From positions 1-58,163 of the forward strand of contig JAGWOC010000013.1 of NCBI GenBank assembly GCA_028872875.1: 58,163 nt of DNA. The letters are read 5' to 3'. Source of the DNA: Chloroflexota bacterium. GTDB taxonomy: Bacteria > Chloroflexota > Dehalococcoidia > DSTF01 > JACRBR01. A program made the translations under genes and the position numbers. Within the stretch, counting starts at the first letter, position 1. Each line of letters begins with the position of its first letter. The notes beneath the pieces are model-generated. The model did not search any database and had not been told where the DNA came from. It was given only the letters and a program-made list of their open reading frames with translations. Positions 1 to 9,778 of the stretch are shown here, piece by piece.

Positions 1-193
1 TGCCCCGCGTCTTCGCCAGCCCCGCGTACACCGCCTCCTTGCCCCGCTCGGAGCTGAAGAGGCCGGTGGACAGGACGACGAAGGCGAAGACCGCCGCCAC
101 CACGACGAACGCGATCAGGATGATCGCCGTCTCGAGACCGGTGATCCCGCGCTCTTCGCGCATGCGGCGGACGAATTGCAGAATCCGCTTCAT
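1..193 (-). CDS. Archaellin (archaeal-type flagellin), N-terminal part, gene runs off the window
   Basis: Reading the complementary strand from the ATG at 193-191 gives a protein starting [16 protein letters not shown], followed directly by [20 protein letters not shown] and then a segment with [18 protein letters not shown]. This is the archaellin N-terminus: a short basic class III signal peptide, a prepilin-peptidase site after Gly16 (G|ITGLE), a hydrophobic assembly helix (about residues 17-40), and the polar stretch typical of archaellins. A GGAGGAGAG Shine-Dalgarno lies 4 bases before the ATG. Only 64 codons are in the window; the globular domain is missing. The mature protein would polymerise into the archaellum filament. 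In archaea it needs the FlaI/FlaJ-type motor and a class III signal peptidase; neither is visible here. A type IV pilin is the main alternative, but the [13 protein letters not shown] signature favours archaellin. Confidence 0.9.
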
Positions 194-620
194 TGCCTCT
201 CCTCCAGTTTCAGGTTGTGGGGCCGGCGGCCCCAGGCGCAGTCGGAATGTCAGTTGCTCCCCTGGTGTCACCCCCTTTGATGAGCGCGAGCCTGTGTGAG
301 ATTCCGAACTGCGCAGGCTTGGTCGCGCATTCCATTGCTACCCGGCCGTCTGCACCCGTAGGCGCCATCCGCCCGGGGGACCAGATCTGGCGCGTCCGTG
401 CACTGGCCTGCCGGTACTTCCGTGTACCGTTGAAGCTTCGTGTCCGCGGGAACTCCGGTGCATGGTGGATCCCCCCGACTTCTGGGGGTGCCCTCACCTA
501 ACGCGCCCTTGCCGCCGTGCCCGCCTGCCCCTGACCCGCTCGCCGCCCGGGCCGCACGCGGCGCCAGAATCAGCGCACTCCCCCATGTCCGGTGGCGGGA
601 CGTGTCCGATAACCCACCCG
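194..620. other. Divergent intergenic region between archaellin and response regulator
   Basis: These 427 bases separate the start of the archaellin gene (minus strand) from the start of the response regulator (plus strand), so they must hold both promoters. No protein with recognisable features is encoded. I see several short hairpins: GGGGCCGGCGGCCCC near 221-235, CGGTAC-TTCCGT-GTACCG near 411-429, and CCCCC-GACTTCT-GGGGG near 474-490. There is also a longer spaced inverted repeat, listed separately. I do not recognise a known riboswitch and see no clear consensus sigma70 promoter. Confidence 0.6.
237..314. repeat. Spaced inverted repeat in the archaellin upstream region
   Basis: GCGCAGTCGGAAT at 237-249 is the reverse complement of ATTCCGAACTGCGC at 301-314, apart from one inserted base; the arms are 51 bases apart. 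The repeat begins 44 bases before the archaellin start codon, within its probable promoter or 5' leader. It could be a pair of sites for a dimeric regulator, a long-looped RNA hairpin, or chance. The match is seen directly; the function is inference. Confidence 0.55.
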
Positions 621-1340
621 ATGGAACCGTCGAATCAGCAACCCTCCGCGATCCGCGTGCTCGTCGTGGAGACCGACAGTCTCTTGCGGGAGATGCTCGG
701 CGCGGCGCTGGCCGCGGACGCGCGCCTGCGCGTCGTTGGCACCACGGGCGACCCGCCGGCGGCGGCGAGCCTCGCCGCCTCACTGCTGGCGGACGTCACG
801 CTGATCGGCATCGATGCCCGCAGCGAGCAGGCCGCGCTCGCGGCCGCTCAGGAGATCGGCCGCGCCCATCCTGCCGCGCGCGTCGTGTTTCTGGGCGAGC
901 GCCCCGACGCCCGCATGCTCGCCGCCCTGCCCGCGTTTCGCGCGGCGGGCTGGTCCTACCTGCTGCGCCAGTCCGTCGCCGACGTCGCCACGCTCGCCCG
1001 CGCCATCGATGGCGCCGCCTCCGGGCTCGTCGTCCTCGACCCGCTCGTGGTCGAGAGCCTCGGCCGTCGGGAGACGCGCCTGTCCGCGTTGACCAGGCGC
1101 CAGCTCGAGGTCCTTTCGCTGATGGCCCGCGGGTACAACAACGCCGCGATCGCGCGTGCGCTCGTGCTCGAAGAGAAGAGCGTCGAGAACCACATCAACG
1201 CGATCTTCGGCCAGCTCAACCTGAGCCGCGACCGCGCCGCCCACCCGCGTGTGAAGGCGGTCCTGCTCTACCTGCGGGAGGGCGAAGGCAGCGCCCCGGA
1301 CGCGCCGGACCCCGAATCTCGCCAGCGCAGGGCGGCGTAG
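621..1340 (+). CDS. NarL/LuxR-type response regulator with a degenerate receiver domain
   Basis: A 239-residue protein with a receiver-like domain (about 12-135) and a C-terminal LuxR-type helix-turn-helix (about 154-205, LTRRQLEVLSLMARG then KSVENHINAIFGQLNL). The HTH is well conserved, so DNA binding is likely. The receiver is not: the usual acidic pair after beta-1 reads E17-T18, the position of the phospho-acceptor Asp holds Gly63 (LIGID), and the conserved Lys is Arg116 (SYLLRQ). It should therefore not be phosphorylated in the usual way. I took the ATG at 621 because homology begins shortly after it; upstream ATGs are in low-quality sequence. The archaellin gene is divergent upstream and a kinase-like gene converges from downstream, so control of one or both is plausible but not shown. 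Confidence 0.85.
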   Translation: MEPSNQQPSAIRVLVVETDSLLREMLGAALAADARLRVVGTTGDPPAAASLAASLLADVTLIGIDARSEQAALAAAQEIGRAHPAARVVFLGERPDARMLAALPAFRAAGWSYLLRQSVADVATLARAIDGAASGLVVLDPLVVESLGRRETRLSALTRRQLEVLSLMARGYNNAAIARALVLEEKSVENHINAIFGQLNLSRDRAAHPRVKAVLLYLREGEGSAPDAPDPESRQRRAA

Positions 1341-1567: not shown

Positions 1568-3322
1568 CTACGCCGGGAACGTCGCCACCGCGCGGTACTG
1601 CGCGCCGTCACGCGCGCGGTCGAGCGCTCCCCCGTAGGCCTCGATGGCGAGCCGGCTCGTCTCGAATCGCGCGTCCAGCGCCGCCGCGGCCGCATCGTCC
1701 GTCTCGTCGAGCGGCGCGCCGATCGCCAGCGTCACGGCGGCCTCGCCGCGGCCGAGCGTGACGAACGCCTCGCGCGCCCCCGCCTCCGCGAGCGCGCGCG
1801 CGCCCTCGAGGACGAAGCGATAGAGGACGAGCCGCCGCCCCACGTCGATCGCCGCCCGGTCGCTGGCCTCATCGACCGCGTCGGCGAGCGGATCCATCTC
1901 GAGCGTCAGGTCGATGACAGGCTCCAGCTCCTTTCGCAGCGCCTTCAGCGCGTTCGGCAGCCCGAGCCGCACGATGCCGGGGTAGAGCTCCTGCTCGATG
2001 GCGCGCAGCTCGCGGTCGCGCACGGCCTCGAGCTCGGCCATCGCCTGGGCGTGCAGCCCGGACGGGGCGTACGGCGCATCCTCGGCGGCGGACTCGGGGT
2101 CGATGCGCCGGTATGCTTCGTCCGCCTGTGCGCCGGCGAGCAGCAGCCGCGCCCGCACGTCATCGCGCAACTGCTCCGACAGCCGCTCGTTGCGCCGCTC
2201 GTACGCCTCGATCAGCACCGTTGCGGCGACCGGCGCGGCCGCGGCGGCAGGCGCCGGCTCCTCTGGCTCCGGCGCCGCGTCCTCGCGCGGCCCGGCGAGC
2301 AGCAACAGCGGTCGCCGCCGGCGGTCCCCGAAGGAGAGCGCCACGCCGCCCATCACCACCGCCAGGACCGCGCCGGCCACCGTCACCCAGCCCTGCTTGC
2401 CCATCGCCTGTGCGTGCTCCGCCTCCACCAGCGACGACGGCAAGCAGGAAGCCAGCGTCGAACCCTGATCGATCTGCGACCCCTTGCCGATCGGGCTCAG
2501 GCCGCAGATCGAGTCGACCCCCGCGACGACCGCGCGCACGCCACCGCCCGCGAGCGGCTGGCCGCGCCACGGCTGCCCGAGCAGCGCGTCCGGCACGCCG
2601 GCGGCGTACACCCCGGACGCGTTGATGACGACGTTCCGGCTGCCATCGACCTGCGCCCCAAGCGTGGCCTTCCAGAGCCGCGCCGGGTCCGCCCGTCCGA
2701 GCAGCATCCCCCAGGTCGTGCCGTCGCCGTCCTTCAGCGGCACCGCAAACTCGACGTAGCCGGGCCGCCCGGCCTGCGGCAGCACGACGTCGGAGCTCGA
2801 AGGCGTCAGTGTGCTCCGCGCCTGCTGGAACGCCGGGCTGTCGAGCACGCGCGTCACCGACGGGTCCGTCGAAGCGAGGACGGTGCCCGACCGGTCGGCG
2901 ACGATCAGCGACGCCAGATTGTTGGTGTTGAGGTAGAGGTCCTGCCGCATGACGCCGGTTCGCACGTCTCGCGGCGTCGCCCGCTGGTGCACACGCGGGT
3001 CCTCGGCGTAGCGCAGCATCTCCATGTAGGTGTTGAAGGCGTCGCCCGTCGCGAGATGCGCCGTCACGGCGGCGAGCGAACCCGCCTCCGTCGCCGCGCG
3101 CTGGTCGACGGCGCGCCGCGAGAACGTATCGGCCCCGTAATAGGCGACCGCGGCCACGAGCGCCACCGCCGCCGCCAGCACCGTCAGCGTCCGCACCCGC
3201 GGCGAGACGGGCGCAAGCCACACCAGCAACCCCCGCGCGCTACGGGCGAGCGCCGCCAGCCCACCGGCGAGGCGGGTCGTCGCGCCGTCCTGCGGCATTC
3301 GAGGCGCCGTCCTGGCTTCCAT
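1568..3322 (-). CDS. Membrane sensor protein resembling a histidine kinase but with dead catalytic boxes
   Basis: 584 residues from the ATG at 3322 (an ATG at 3298 is also possible). TM helix 1 is at about 45-62, an extracytoplasmic sensor region (about 65-308, Cache-like in character) follows, then TM helix 2 (311-331), a Pro/Ala/Glu-rich linker, a coiled coil (370-440) and a kinase-like tail. The tail reads RELRAIEQELYPGIVRLGL, like the dimerisation box of NarX/DesK-type kinases but with Tyr447 at the usual His. The ATPase-like part keeps the helix YRFVLEGARALAEAG (N-box position) and EAYGGALDRARDG, but the N-box Asn and the D-box DxG are gone. It probably senses a signal and passes it on by protein contact. 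The convergent neighbouring regulator is also non-canonical. A highly divergent active kinase cannot be excluded. Confidence 0.75.
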   Translation of the reverse strand: MEARTAPRMPQDGATTRLAGGLAALARSARGLLVWLAPVSPRVRTLTVLAAAVALVAAVAYYGADTFSRRAVDQRAATEAGSLAAVTAHLATGDAFNTYMEMLRYAEDPRVHQRATPRDVRTGVMRQDLYLNTNNLASLIVADRSGTVLASTDPSVTRVLDSPAFQQARSTLTPSSSDVVLPQAGRPGYVEFAVPLKDGDGTTWGMLLGRADPARLWKATLGAQVDGSRNVVINASGVYAAGVPDALLGQPWRGQPLAGGGVRAVVAGVDSICGLSPIGKGSQIDQGSTLASCLPSSLVEAEHAQAMGKQGWVTVAGAVLAVVMGGVALSFGDRRRRPLLLLAGPREDAAPEPEEPAPAAAAAPVAATVLIEAYERRNERLSEQLRDDVRARLLLAGAQADEAYRRIDPESAAEDAPYAPSGLHAQAMAELEAVRDRELRAIEQELYPGIVRLGLPNALKALRKELEPVIDLTLEMDPLADAVDEASDRAAIDVGRRLVLYRFVLEGARALAEAGAREAFVTLGRGEAAVTLAIGAPLDETDDAAAAALDARFETSRLAIEAYGGALDRARDGAQYRAVATFPA

Positions 3323-3428
3323 GTCGCCGCATCTATCCTCGGTGCTGGCACCCAGCGCGGCTAGGGGAAGAACCCCTATTCTGCATGGCCGGTGCGACGG
3401 TGACTGGCGAGACTGCCACCCTGCCGCC

Positions 3429-3453
3429 GTAGGGGCGCCGCTTGCCGCGCCCC
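3429..3453. repeat. Dispersed palindromic repeat A, copy 1
   Basis: A 25-base unit beginning GTAGGGGCGCCGCTTGCCGC whose ends (GGGGCG / CGCCCC) pair into a hairpin. The same unit with a single change lies at 39276-39300. Both are intergenic. This is the look of a REP-type element; no transposase is nearby. Confidence 0.7.
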
Positions 3454-3488
3454 GCGCCGAATCCGGCACGACCCGGCCGGCCGCGCTA

Positions 3489-7739: not shown

Positions 7740-8774
7740 TCAGTCCGGCACGCAGTCCTGGGCGGCGAGGTCAGGCCGCAGGGCGTGGAAGATCGGGAAG
7801 CGCAGGTAGCCGTCGCGGGACCACTCGCTGAAGCGCACGTGGCACACCAACTCGGGCCGCGTCCAGTAGATGAGGCGGGGGATGCGCGGCGGGTCGCTGA
7901 AGCTCGACTGCTCGGCGACGAGCGGCTCGAGCTGCGCGACGAGCGCGCGCGCCTCGGCGTCGCCGAGGCCGCCGCTGACGGCGCCGACGAACTCGAAGCG
8001 CCCCTGCTCGTAGGCACCCAGCAGGAGCTGGCTGAACGGCTCGCCCTTGCGCCGCGCGCCGCCGAACGTGTAGCCGCCGATCGCGAAGTCGCCGCTCTGC
8101 AGCGCCCGCACCTGGAGCCAGCTCTTCGAGCGCGCACCCGGCGTGTACGCGCCCGCCTTCTCCTTGGCAACGATCCCTTCGAGCTTGCGCGACGCGACCG
8201 CCTCGAAGAACGCGATGCCCTCGTCGCTGACGAAGTCGACGGCGGCGAACTCGGCGCCGGGGGAGATGATCTCGTGCAGCCGGTTCTTGCGTTGCCAGAG
8301 CGGACGGTCGATGAGCGAGCGCCCGTCGAGCCAGAGCACGTCGAACGCTTGATAGGCGATTTGACCGGGCGGCCGGCGCTTCAGCGCCGCGGGCGGGCCG
8401 CCGGCGTCCGCGCCGGCGAGCAGGCTGTGCAGGCGCGGGCGCAGCAGGTCGAAGGCGGGCTGCCCATCGCCGTCGAGCGCCACGACCTCGCCGTCGAGCA
8501 GCGCCTCGTGCGCGTGCAGGAGCGCCGGGATGCGCGCGAGCTCGCCGAACGCGGGCAGCAGGTCGCGGCCGTTGCGTCCAAGGAGGCGCAGCGCGCCGTC
8601 GGCGATGCGGGCCTGCGCGCGCACGCCGCCCCAGAGGAGCTCGAAGATGTGGTCGGGCGAGTCGAAGGGCTCCGGCGCCGACGATGCCAGCATCGGCGGC
8701 ATGCGCTGCGGCATGCGGCCCGCGATGGAGGCGACGTTCCGATGCTCGATGTCCTCGTGTCCCGTGATGGTCAT
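7740..8774 (-). CDS. ATP-dependent DNA ligase-like protein of end joining, nucleophilic lysine missing
   Basis: A 344-residue protein with the fold order of the LigD ligase domain: nucleotidyltransferase part (about 25-225) then an OB-fold part. Recognisable motifs are LLGRNGRDL, LDGEVVALDGDG (motif III), YQAFDVLWLDG (IIIa) and LEGIVAKE (IV, 198-205). Motif I, normally E-x-K-x-DG with the Lys that carries AMP, reads FELLWGG (44-50), with neither Lys nor Asp. Motif V reads SKSWLQVR in place of the usual W-x-K-x-K. It starts in an ATGA overlap with the Ku gene, so the two are co-translated. I infer an inactive or repurposed ligase that may work as a structural partner of Ku. Another ligase elsewhere in the genome would then seal the ends. 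Confidence 0.82.
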   Translation of the reverse strand: MTITGHEDIEHRNVASIAGRMPQRMPPMLASSAPEPFDSPDHIFELLWGGVRAQARIADGALRLLGRNGRDLLPAFGELARIPALLHAHEALLDGEVVALDGDGQPAFDLLRPRLHSLLAGADAGGPPAALKRRPPGQIAYQAFDVLWLDGRSLIDRPLWQRKNRLHEIISPGAEFAAVDFVSDEGIAFFEAVASRKLEGIVAKEKAGAYTPGARSKSWLQVRALQSGDFAIGGYTFGGARRKGEPFSQLLLGAYEQGRFEFVGAVSGGLGDAEARALVAQLEPLVAEQSSFSDPPRIPRLIYWTRPELVCHVRFSEWSRDGYLRFPIFHALRPDLAAQDCVPD

Positions 8775-9631
8775 CCGGCGCGCCTGCGTCGTGCAGGCCT
8801 GGCTACGGGCTCTTCCGCTTCGGCCTCCCCGCCCGGTCCGACGGCGGACGCGCCGGACGCGCGCTCGCGCTTCGCCGCGTCGATGCTCTGGCGCAGCGCG
8901 TCCATGAGGTCGGTGACCTTGCCGGCCGCGGGCGCGGGCCGCTTGATCTCCTCGCCCTCCGCCTTACGCTCGATGAGCTCGAGCAGCGCGGCGCGGTAGT
9001 TGTCGGTGTACCGCTCCGGATGGAAGTCGCCCGTCAGCATCTCGACCAGCGACTTCGCCATGGCCAGCTCGCGTTCGCCGAGGGCGCCTGCTTCGGGGAC
9101 GTCGAGTTCGTCGGTGCCGCGGATCTCGTCGGCGTAGAACATGGTCTCGAGGGCGATCGTGTGCTCGTACAGGCGGAGCGTGCAGAGCTGTTCCTTCTGA
9201 CGCAGCGTGACCTTGGCGAGTGCGACGAGCTTCGAATCCTTCAACACCTCACGCAGCAGCGCGAAGGGCTTGGCGCCGATCTTCTCCGGCTCGAGGTAGT
9301 AGGTCTTCTGGTAGTAGATGGGGTCGATCTGGGTGTGCGGCACGAACTCCGTGATCTCGATGGCGTGCGTCGTGTCGACGGGCACCTTGTCGAAGTCCTC
9401 GGGTTCCATGACGACGTACTGGTCGGGTGCGATCGCGTATCCCTTGACGATGTCGTTCCACTCGATGACGGCGTCGTCCTCGGGGCAGTAGCGCTGCTGC
9501 CGGATGCGCGCGTGGTCCGTGCGGTGCAGCATGTGGAAGGCGACGTCCTTTTCTTCGGTCGCGGTGTAGAGCTTCACGGGGATGGACACCATCCCGAAGC
9601 TGACCGCGCCCTTCCAGATCGCTCGTGGCAT
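8771..9631 (-). CDS. ku: Ku-type DNA end-binding protein
   Basis: A 286-residue bacterial Ku from the ATG at 9631 (GAGGAG 7 bases upstream). It begins MPRAIWKGAVSFGMVSIPVK, the family's hallmark start. It has the beta-barrel core (for example CPEDDAVIEWNDIVKGYAI), the YYLEPEK strand and an Arg/Lys-rich tail. Bacterial Ku forms a homodimeric ring on DNA ends and recruits the end-joining ligase. That gene follows with a 4-base overlap, as in many bacteria, but here the ligase looks catalytically dead. An in-frame ATG at 9658 is less likely. Confidence 0.95.
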   Translation of the reverse strand: MPRAIWKGAVSFGMVSIPVKLYTATEEKDVAFHMLHRTDHARIRQQRYCPEDDAVIEWNDIVKGYAIAPDQYVVMEPEDFDKVPVDTTHAIEITEFVPHTQIDPIYYQKTYYLEPEKIGAKPFALLREVLKDSKLVALAKVTLRQKEQLCTLRLYEHTIALETMFYADEIRGTDELDVPEAGALGERELAMAKSLVEMLTGDFHPERYTDNYRAALLELIERKAEGEEIKRPAPAAGKVTDLMDALRQSIDAAKRERASGASAVGPGGEAEAEEPVARPARRRRAG

Positions 9632-9778
9632 GCGCAACTCCTCGCCCGCCGCGGCCACCCGGCGGGCCGCATCCCAAAGCTTGCGGGACGAGGCCCGGCG
9701 GTGTCAATACGGCGGGCCGCTGACGCGGCGTCAGGGTGCCGGCCCGCGCGGACCGCGGCGTCGAGGCGCGGGGCGGGC

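Follow-up and report, generated by a model that had tools for sequence, protein, structure and literature searches.

Archaellum genes at two loci and a linked peptidoglycan amidase in a draft genome of the Dehalococcoidia

The stretch of DNA considered here (the window) is the whole of a 58,163-nucleotide contig, JAGWOC010000013.1, designated C214, from the draft genome GCA_028872875.1 of a Chloroflexota bacterium (3.4 Mb in 234 contigs, 95.5% complete, with a contamination estimate of 3.5%). Its first 193 positions hold the beginning of a gene that we identify, with high confidence, as the 5' end of arlB, encoding the major archaellin of a Dehalococcoidia archaellum. The reading frame runs on the minus strand from position 193 to position 2 and is open at the contig end, giving 64 residues, of which the first 16 form a signal peptide that ends at the class III site RG^ITGLE and is followed by a hydrophobic helix. 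These 64 residues match the Pfam family Arch_flagellin (PF01917) with 41.3 bits (E 2.6e-10, curated cut-off 29.5) and the NCBIfam model of the archaellin N-terminal domain (TIGR02537) with 39.2 bits (cut-off 20), and their best match among solved structures is the archaellin sequence of 9i5h/9sie/9sii (E 5e-16); 9SIE and 9SII are depositions of the bacterial archaellum of Litorilinea aerophila determined by cryo-electron microscopy. A preliminary description of the window, made from its letters alone, had proposed an archaellin N-terminus with cleavage before ITGLE and a polymerisation helix, and these searches bear it out. The source genome encodes four archaellins, the three further genes lying apart on contigs C100, C179 and C24, and it yields no match to the flagellin family PF00669.

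The remainder of arlB is found at the start of contig C24, where positions 1-348 encode the last 115 archaellin residues after a gap of ~47 bp. The first 47 bp of C24 are identical to the archaellin paralogue on C100, as is a longer stretch at the window start (Table 1), and this common repeat is the likely reason for the assembly break, since an exact repeat of this kind would exceed the assembler word length. Both halves of the gene are closest to the arlB of the main archaellum cluster in G016, a genome of the same genus: the window half is identical at 61/64 positions (54/64 against the G016 paralogue) and the C24 half at 93/115 (72/115 against the paralogue). A single contig of G016 carries, in order, a LuxR-type gene on the minus strand, arlB, an arlC-like gene, arlG, arlF, arlJ, a gene for a small protein and an amidase gene, and genome G051 has an identical order, with a Cache-domain sensor in place. 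The join of the window to C24, bridged by comparison rather than by sequence, is for these reasons well supported.

On C24 the 3' end of arlB is followed by the same series: arlC-like, arlG, arlF, arlJ, a gene for a small protein of 139 amino acids and, beginning 6 bp past it in the same orientation, the amidase gene. The motor genes arlH and arlI, both intact, lie in the interior of another contig, the 32-kb C103, and are followed there by a gene for a 144-amino-acid protein and by rplU, rpmA and rpmE (these three named by reading of the sequence). The preliminary description had placed the rest of the cluster to the left of position 1, which holds for the remainder of arlB and for arlC-G-F-J, while arlH and arlI turned out to stand at this second locus. 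ArlI scores 635 bits against NF058587 (cut-off 550), matches the solved FlaI structure 4ii7 with E 3e-125 and retains its Walker A sequence GETASGKTT and its TGH box. ArlH scores 267 bits against the FlaH subfamily model NF004723 (cut-off 194) and 190 bits against NF052589, just short of 215, and matches the solved FlaH structure 4yds with E 2e-29. ArlJ reaches 445 bits over 480 residues with NF004703, below the cut-off of 570, as are the scores of all ten relatives found. The ArlG (E 4e-7) and ArlF (E 8e-4) hits are weak, though the best for these two proteins, and each protein also matches PF01917 weakly; their order, G before F, is that of the arl2 type. The arlC-like protein (227 amino acids) occupies the arlC position, is conserved across families and carries an NPF motif; it has no match in Pfam, NCBIfam or PDB. 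A Peptidase_A24 gene, the predicted prepilin peptidase, is present on C124, and an A24_N_bact domain on C177. The frames of the core archaellum genes are all open, and the motor genes anticipated from the window alone (ArlI, ArlH, ArlJ, ArlF, ArlG and a prepilin peptidase) are thus all represented in the genome.

Two side observations concern these proteins. The small acidic proteins that end the arlJ and arlHI operons (L008:3798-4217 and L023:10408-10842) match no known family and share the C-terminal motif V-E-x-x-D-L-x-x-x-x-x-x-AAAL; one possibility is that they are paralogues serving as adaptors, one for each half-operon. In several other Dehalococcoidia, arlI occurs as a tandem pair (loci L118, L119, L120/L061, L121, L122 and L062), with the Walker A lysine (GK[ST]) retained in all the aligned copies, and the duplications fall in at least two separate clades of the ArlI tree (G068/G113/G219 and G175/G063). 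A division of work between assembly and rotation is possible for such pairs. One of these loci, L062 (CAIVVZ010000268.1), is labelled Desulfobacteraceae; its tandem arlI and its arlJ are close to those of the Dehalococcoidia, and it is probably a mis-binned contig.

The source organism is a member of the Dehalococcoidia (Chloroflexota), a class with known archaella (PMC10444878, PMC12488501). Relatives of its ArlI at 78-98% identity belong to bacteria of the Chloroflexi or Dehalococcoidia, in agreement with the preliminary assignment to the Chloroflexota, and in the ArlI tree the protein groups, at support 97/97, with ArlI from further families of its order. This taxonomy fits the published spread of archaella in Dehalococcoidia and Anaerolineae (PMC12488501, PMC10444878); the preliminary description had likewise mentioned archaellum genes reported in some Chloroflexota. 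In a draw of 393 genomes at the level of the class, 55 encoded an ArlI above the cut-off. In the families f2, f3 and f4 of the same order, as in the majority of the other Dehalococcoidia seen, arlH, arlI and arlJ are contiguous. The family of the source organism (f1) departs from this: in G085 arlHI is divergent from the arlB operon on the same contig, and each of the two operons has a contig to itself in G000, G016, G051 and G169. No contig end comes within 10 kb of arlHI in these four genomes, and for G016 and G051 the same holds at arlJ. In the source genome arlHI is in the interior of C103 and arlBCGFJ on C24. The split arrangement is retained in four genera of f1, and its history was likely an inversion that gave a divergent pair, followed by dispersal. 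According to a 2025 paper (PMC12488501), all archaellum genes of the Chloroflexota stay within one locus, unlike those of the source genome.

The gene that follows the small protein after arlJ encodes an enzyme of the secreted N-acetylmuramoyl-L-alanine amidase type; its N-terminus has a hydrophobic segment, and its Amidase_3 domain scores 117 bits. An orthologue occupies the same place in all eight genomes whose contig shows it, six from f1 and two from its sister family f3, and seven aligned sequences all keep the conserved metal-ligand motifs, with His and Glu, unchanged. Among 57 genomes searched, a strong match was found only in those eight, adjoining arlJ in every one; weak matches in four others are located elsewhere, away from arlJ. 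The enzyme goes unmentioned in the two papers on L. aerophila. The 2026 follow-up (PMC13319060) describes the anchoring of archaella in peptidoglycan as unknown for those Chloroflexota that lack PilN/PilO. The linkage to arlJ makes the amidase a candidate for opening the peptidoglycan to the filament or the stator.

Bacterial archaella are a kind of system described between 2023 and 2025 (PMC10444878, PMC12488501). The system considered here resembles that of L. aerophila and other Chloroflexota (PMC12488501; 9SIE/9SII) in phylum, archaellin sequence and cleavage site, in having arlG before arlF and ArlH, ArlI and ArlJ, and in its multiple arlB copies and a signal peptidase encoded outside the locus. 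It differs in the amidase gene after arlJ and the LuxR-type gene divergent from arlB, and in that no PilN/PilO genes were seen beside the arl locus. With the SAR202 'Candidatus Lucifugimonas' (PMC10444878) it shares the class Dehalococcoidia, scattered extra archaellin genes and a Peptidase_A24 enzyme, whereas six flaB copies and flaGFHIJ form one cluster in SAR202. The core proteins and the order of arlG and arlF are also those of the euryarchaeal arl2 archaellum, whose lineage is the presumed donor (PMC12488501), in contrast to which the present system has a bacterial host with peptidoglycan, a relocated arlHI and divergent accessory proteins. The archaellin finding is confirmed as one of a class already published, and the split layout and the amidase linkage are a modest new variation on it. 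The split locus, the arlJ-linked amidase, the LuxR-type regulator and the frequent absence of CheW noted below go unmentioned in the cited accounts of bacterial archaella.

The other features near the window start are listed in Table 1. The position of the LuxR-type gene beside arlB is kept in G016, G051 and family f3, and in f1 and f3 the receiver domain of these proteins is weak or not recognisable. A homologue of the membrane sensor, in which no kinase domain was recognised, adjoins the arl locus in G051 and G085. The proposal that such two-component-like neighbours regulate the archaellin has therefore gained support from synteny and stays at the level of candidates: the LuxR-type protein, from its linkage, is a candidate controller of arlB, and the sensor its candidate partner. 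Between arlB and the LuxR-type gene, an inverted repeat CGGTAC-N5-GTACCG (~235 bp before the arlB start codon) and the block GCGACCAAGCC (~132 bp before it) are conserved in position in G016. A riboswitch was suspected in the arlB leader because of this conservation and was rejected: the folding z-score is -1.4, a search of Rfam up to E 1 gave no match in the intergenic region, and all other archaellins examined lack these motifs upstream, which together point to a regulatory region conserved within the genus.

Table 1. Features at the start of the window
Feature	Position	Strand	Description or basis
arlB, archaellin, first 64 codons	2..193	-	class III signal peptide, cleavage before ITGLE, polymerisation helix
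Shine-Dalgarno-like GGAGGAG upstream of the arlB ATG	199..205	-	read directly from the sequence
139-bp stretch shared without mismatch with the C100 archaellin paralogue	1..139	-	sequence comparison
427-bp intergenic region separating the divergent arlB and LuxR-type genes	194..620	.	candidate regulatory region
LuxR/GerE-type regulator, divergent from arlB; receiver domain weak, under the cut-off	621..1340	+	profile search, synteny
Membrane sensor with weak (below cut-off) Cache domain	1568..3469	-	profile search

The window neighbours examined, namely an MrfA/Hrq1-type helicase, the LuxR-type regulator and the Cache-domain sensor, are bacterial, as the preliminary description had supposed for the rest of the window. 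Near the helicase gene, at positions 7740-9658, frames read by eye suggest a LigD-type ligase and Ku (bacterial end-joining).

The preliminary description had itself named two alternatives, a type IV pilin and an archaeal or chimeric contig. It is very unlikely that the product of the gene is a type IV pilin or the subunit of some other archaeal-type adhesive filament that does not rotate. TIGR02537 spans archaellins and type IV pilins, and pilus-type T2SSE/T2SSF operons also occur in the genome, on C177, C20 and C206; the matches of the window gene nonetheless point specifically to archaellins, the bacterial archaellin structure among them, and a full-length paralogue matches solved archaellins across the globular domain (E 3.5e-37). 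ArlI, moreover, exceeds its equivalog cut-off and scores far lower as the pilus ATPase BasE (635 vs 185 bits), and the archaellum-specific ArlH, ArlF and ArlG are present. Pilin identity was rejected on these grounds. Archaeal contamination or a chimeric contig might be suspected from a fragmented draft with some estimated contamination and a gene at a contig end. We regard this as extremely improbable and have rejected it, given that the same gene order is found in five other genomes of f1, that rplU and further ribosomal-protein genes of bacterial type come after arlHI well inside the same contig, and that the ArlI tree follows the order. The motor genes are present, the best match of the window gene is an archaellin and the contigs are bacterial.

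Decay of the archaellum deserves somewhat more weight than either of these and is still improbable. A device that no longer serves motility might be expected to look like one with its motor genes split from arlJ, several scattered archaellins and no CheW or CheA. Against this, the core frames are open and the ATPase motifs intact, the split layout has been maintained across the four f1 genera, and CheW is also missing from most of the archaellated relatives whose clusters are canonical. No CheW domain was detected in the source genome, and among 54 archaellated Dehalococcoidia genomes it is present in 15 and absent in 39, so that for most archaella of this class a classical chemotaxis array appears to be missing.

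The genes are intact, belong to archaellum families and keep a conserved order, and together they point to an archaellum that was acquired horizontally and has long resided in this Dehalococcoidia lineage. By homology with steps known from archaea and, in part, from L. aerophila (PMC12488501), the prepilin peptidase would cleave ArlB after Gly16, removing 16 residues; ArlI, together with ArlH and with ArlJ as the membrane platform, is predicted to assemble the filament from ArlB and to rotate it; and ArlF/ArlG would form the stator that holds the filament to the envelope. The amidase might open the wall for the filament or the stator, and the divergent LuxR-type regulator might control arlB. 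Assembly, rotation and swimming in the source organism are inferred by homology to L. aerophila, where they have been observed. We would tentatively extend this to a joint reading, which we consider possible and somewhat doubtful, in which the order gained a dedicated peptidoglycan amidase that lets the archaellum pass through and anchor in the wall, and in which the arlHI of f1 is a separately regulated operon, in most genera moved away from the operon for filament, stator and platform, with a LuxR-type regulator in control and no CheA-type chemotaxis. Several points weigh against the main reading, of an archaellum with ArlB as its filament protein. The arlB of the source organism is discontinuous in the assembly across the 47-bp gap. 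The ArlF and ArlG matches are far under the equivalog cut-offs, the role of the arlC-like protein is read from position and the NPF motif with no accessory-family match in Pfam or NCBIfam, and that of the amidase is read from linkage. The source genome, moreover, has neither CheW nor CheA through which the motor might be steered.

That a working rotary motor passed from archaea to bacteria has become known only recently. Given the split locus, searches that require one contiguous cluster may under-count archaellated bacteria. The frequent absence of CheW raises the question of how, or whether, the bacterial archaellum motor is steered. For the crossing or anchoring of an archaellum in peptidoglycan, the arlJ-linked wall amidase offers a concrete and testable candidate.
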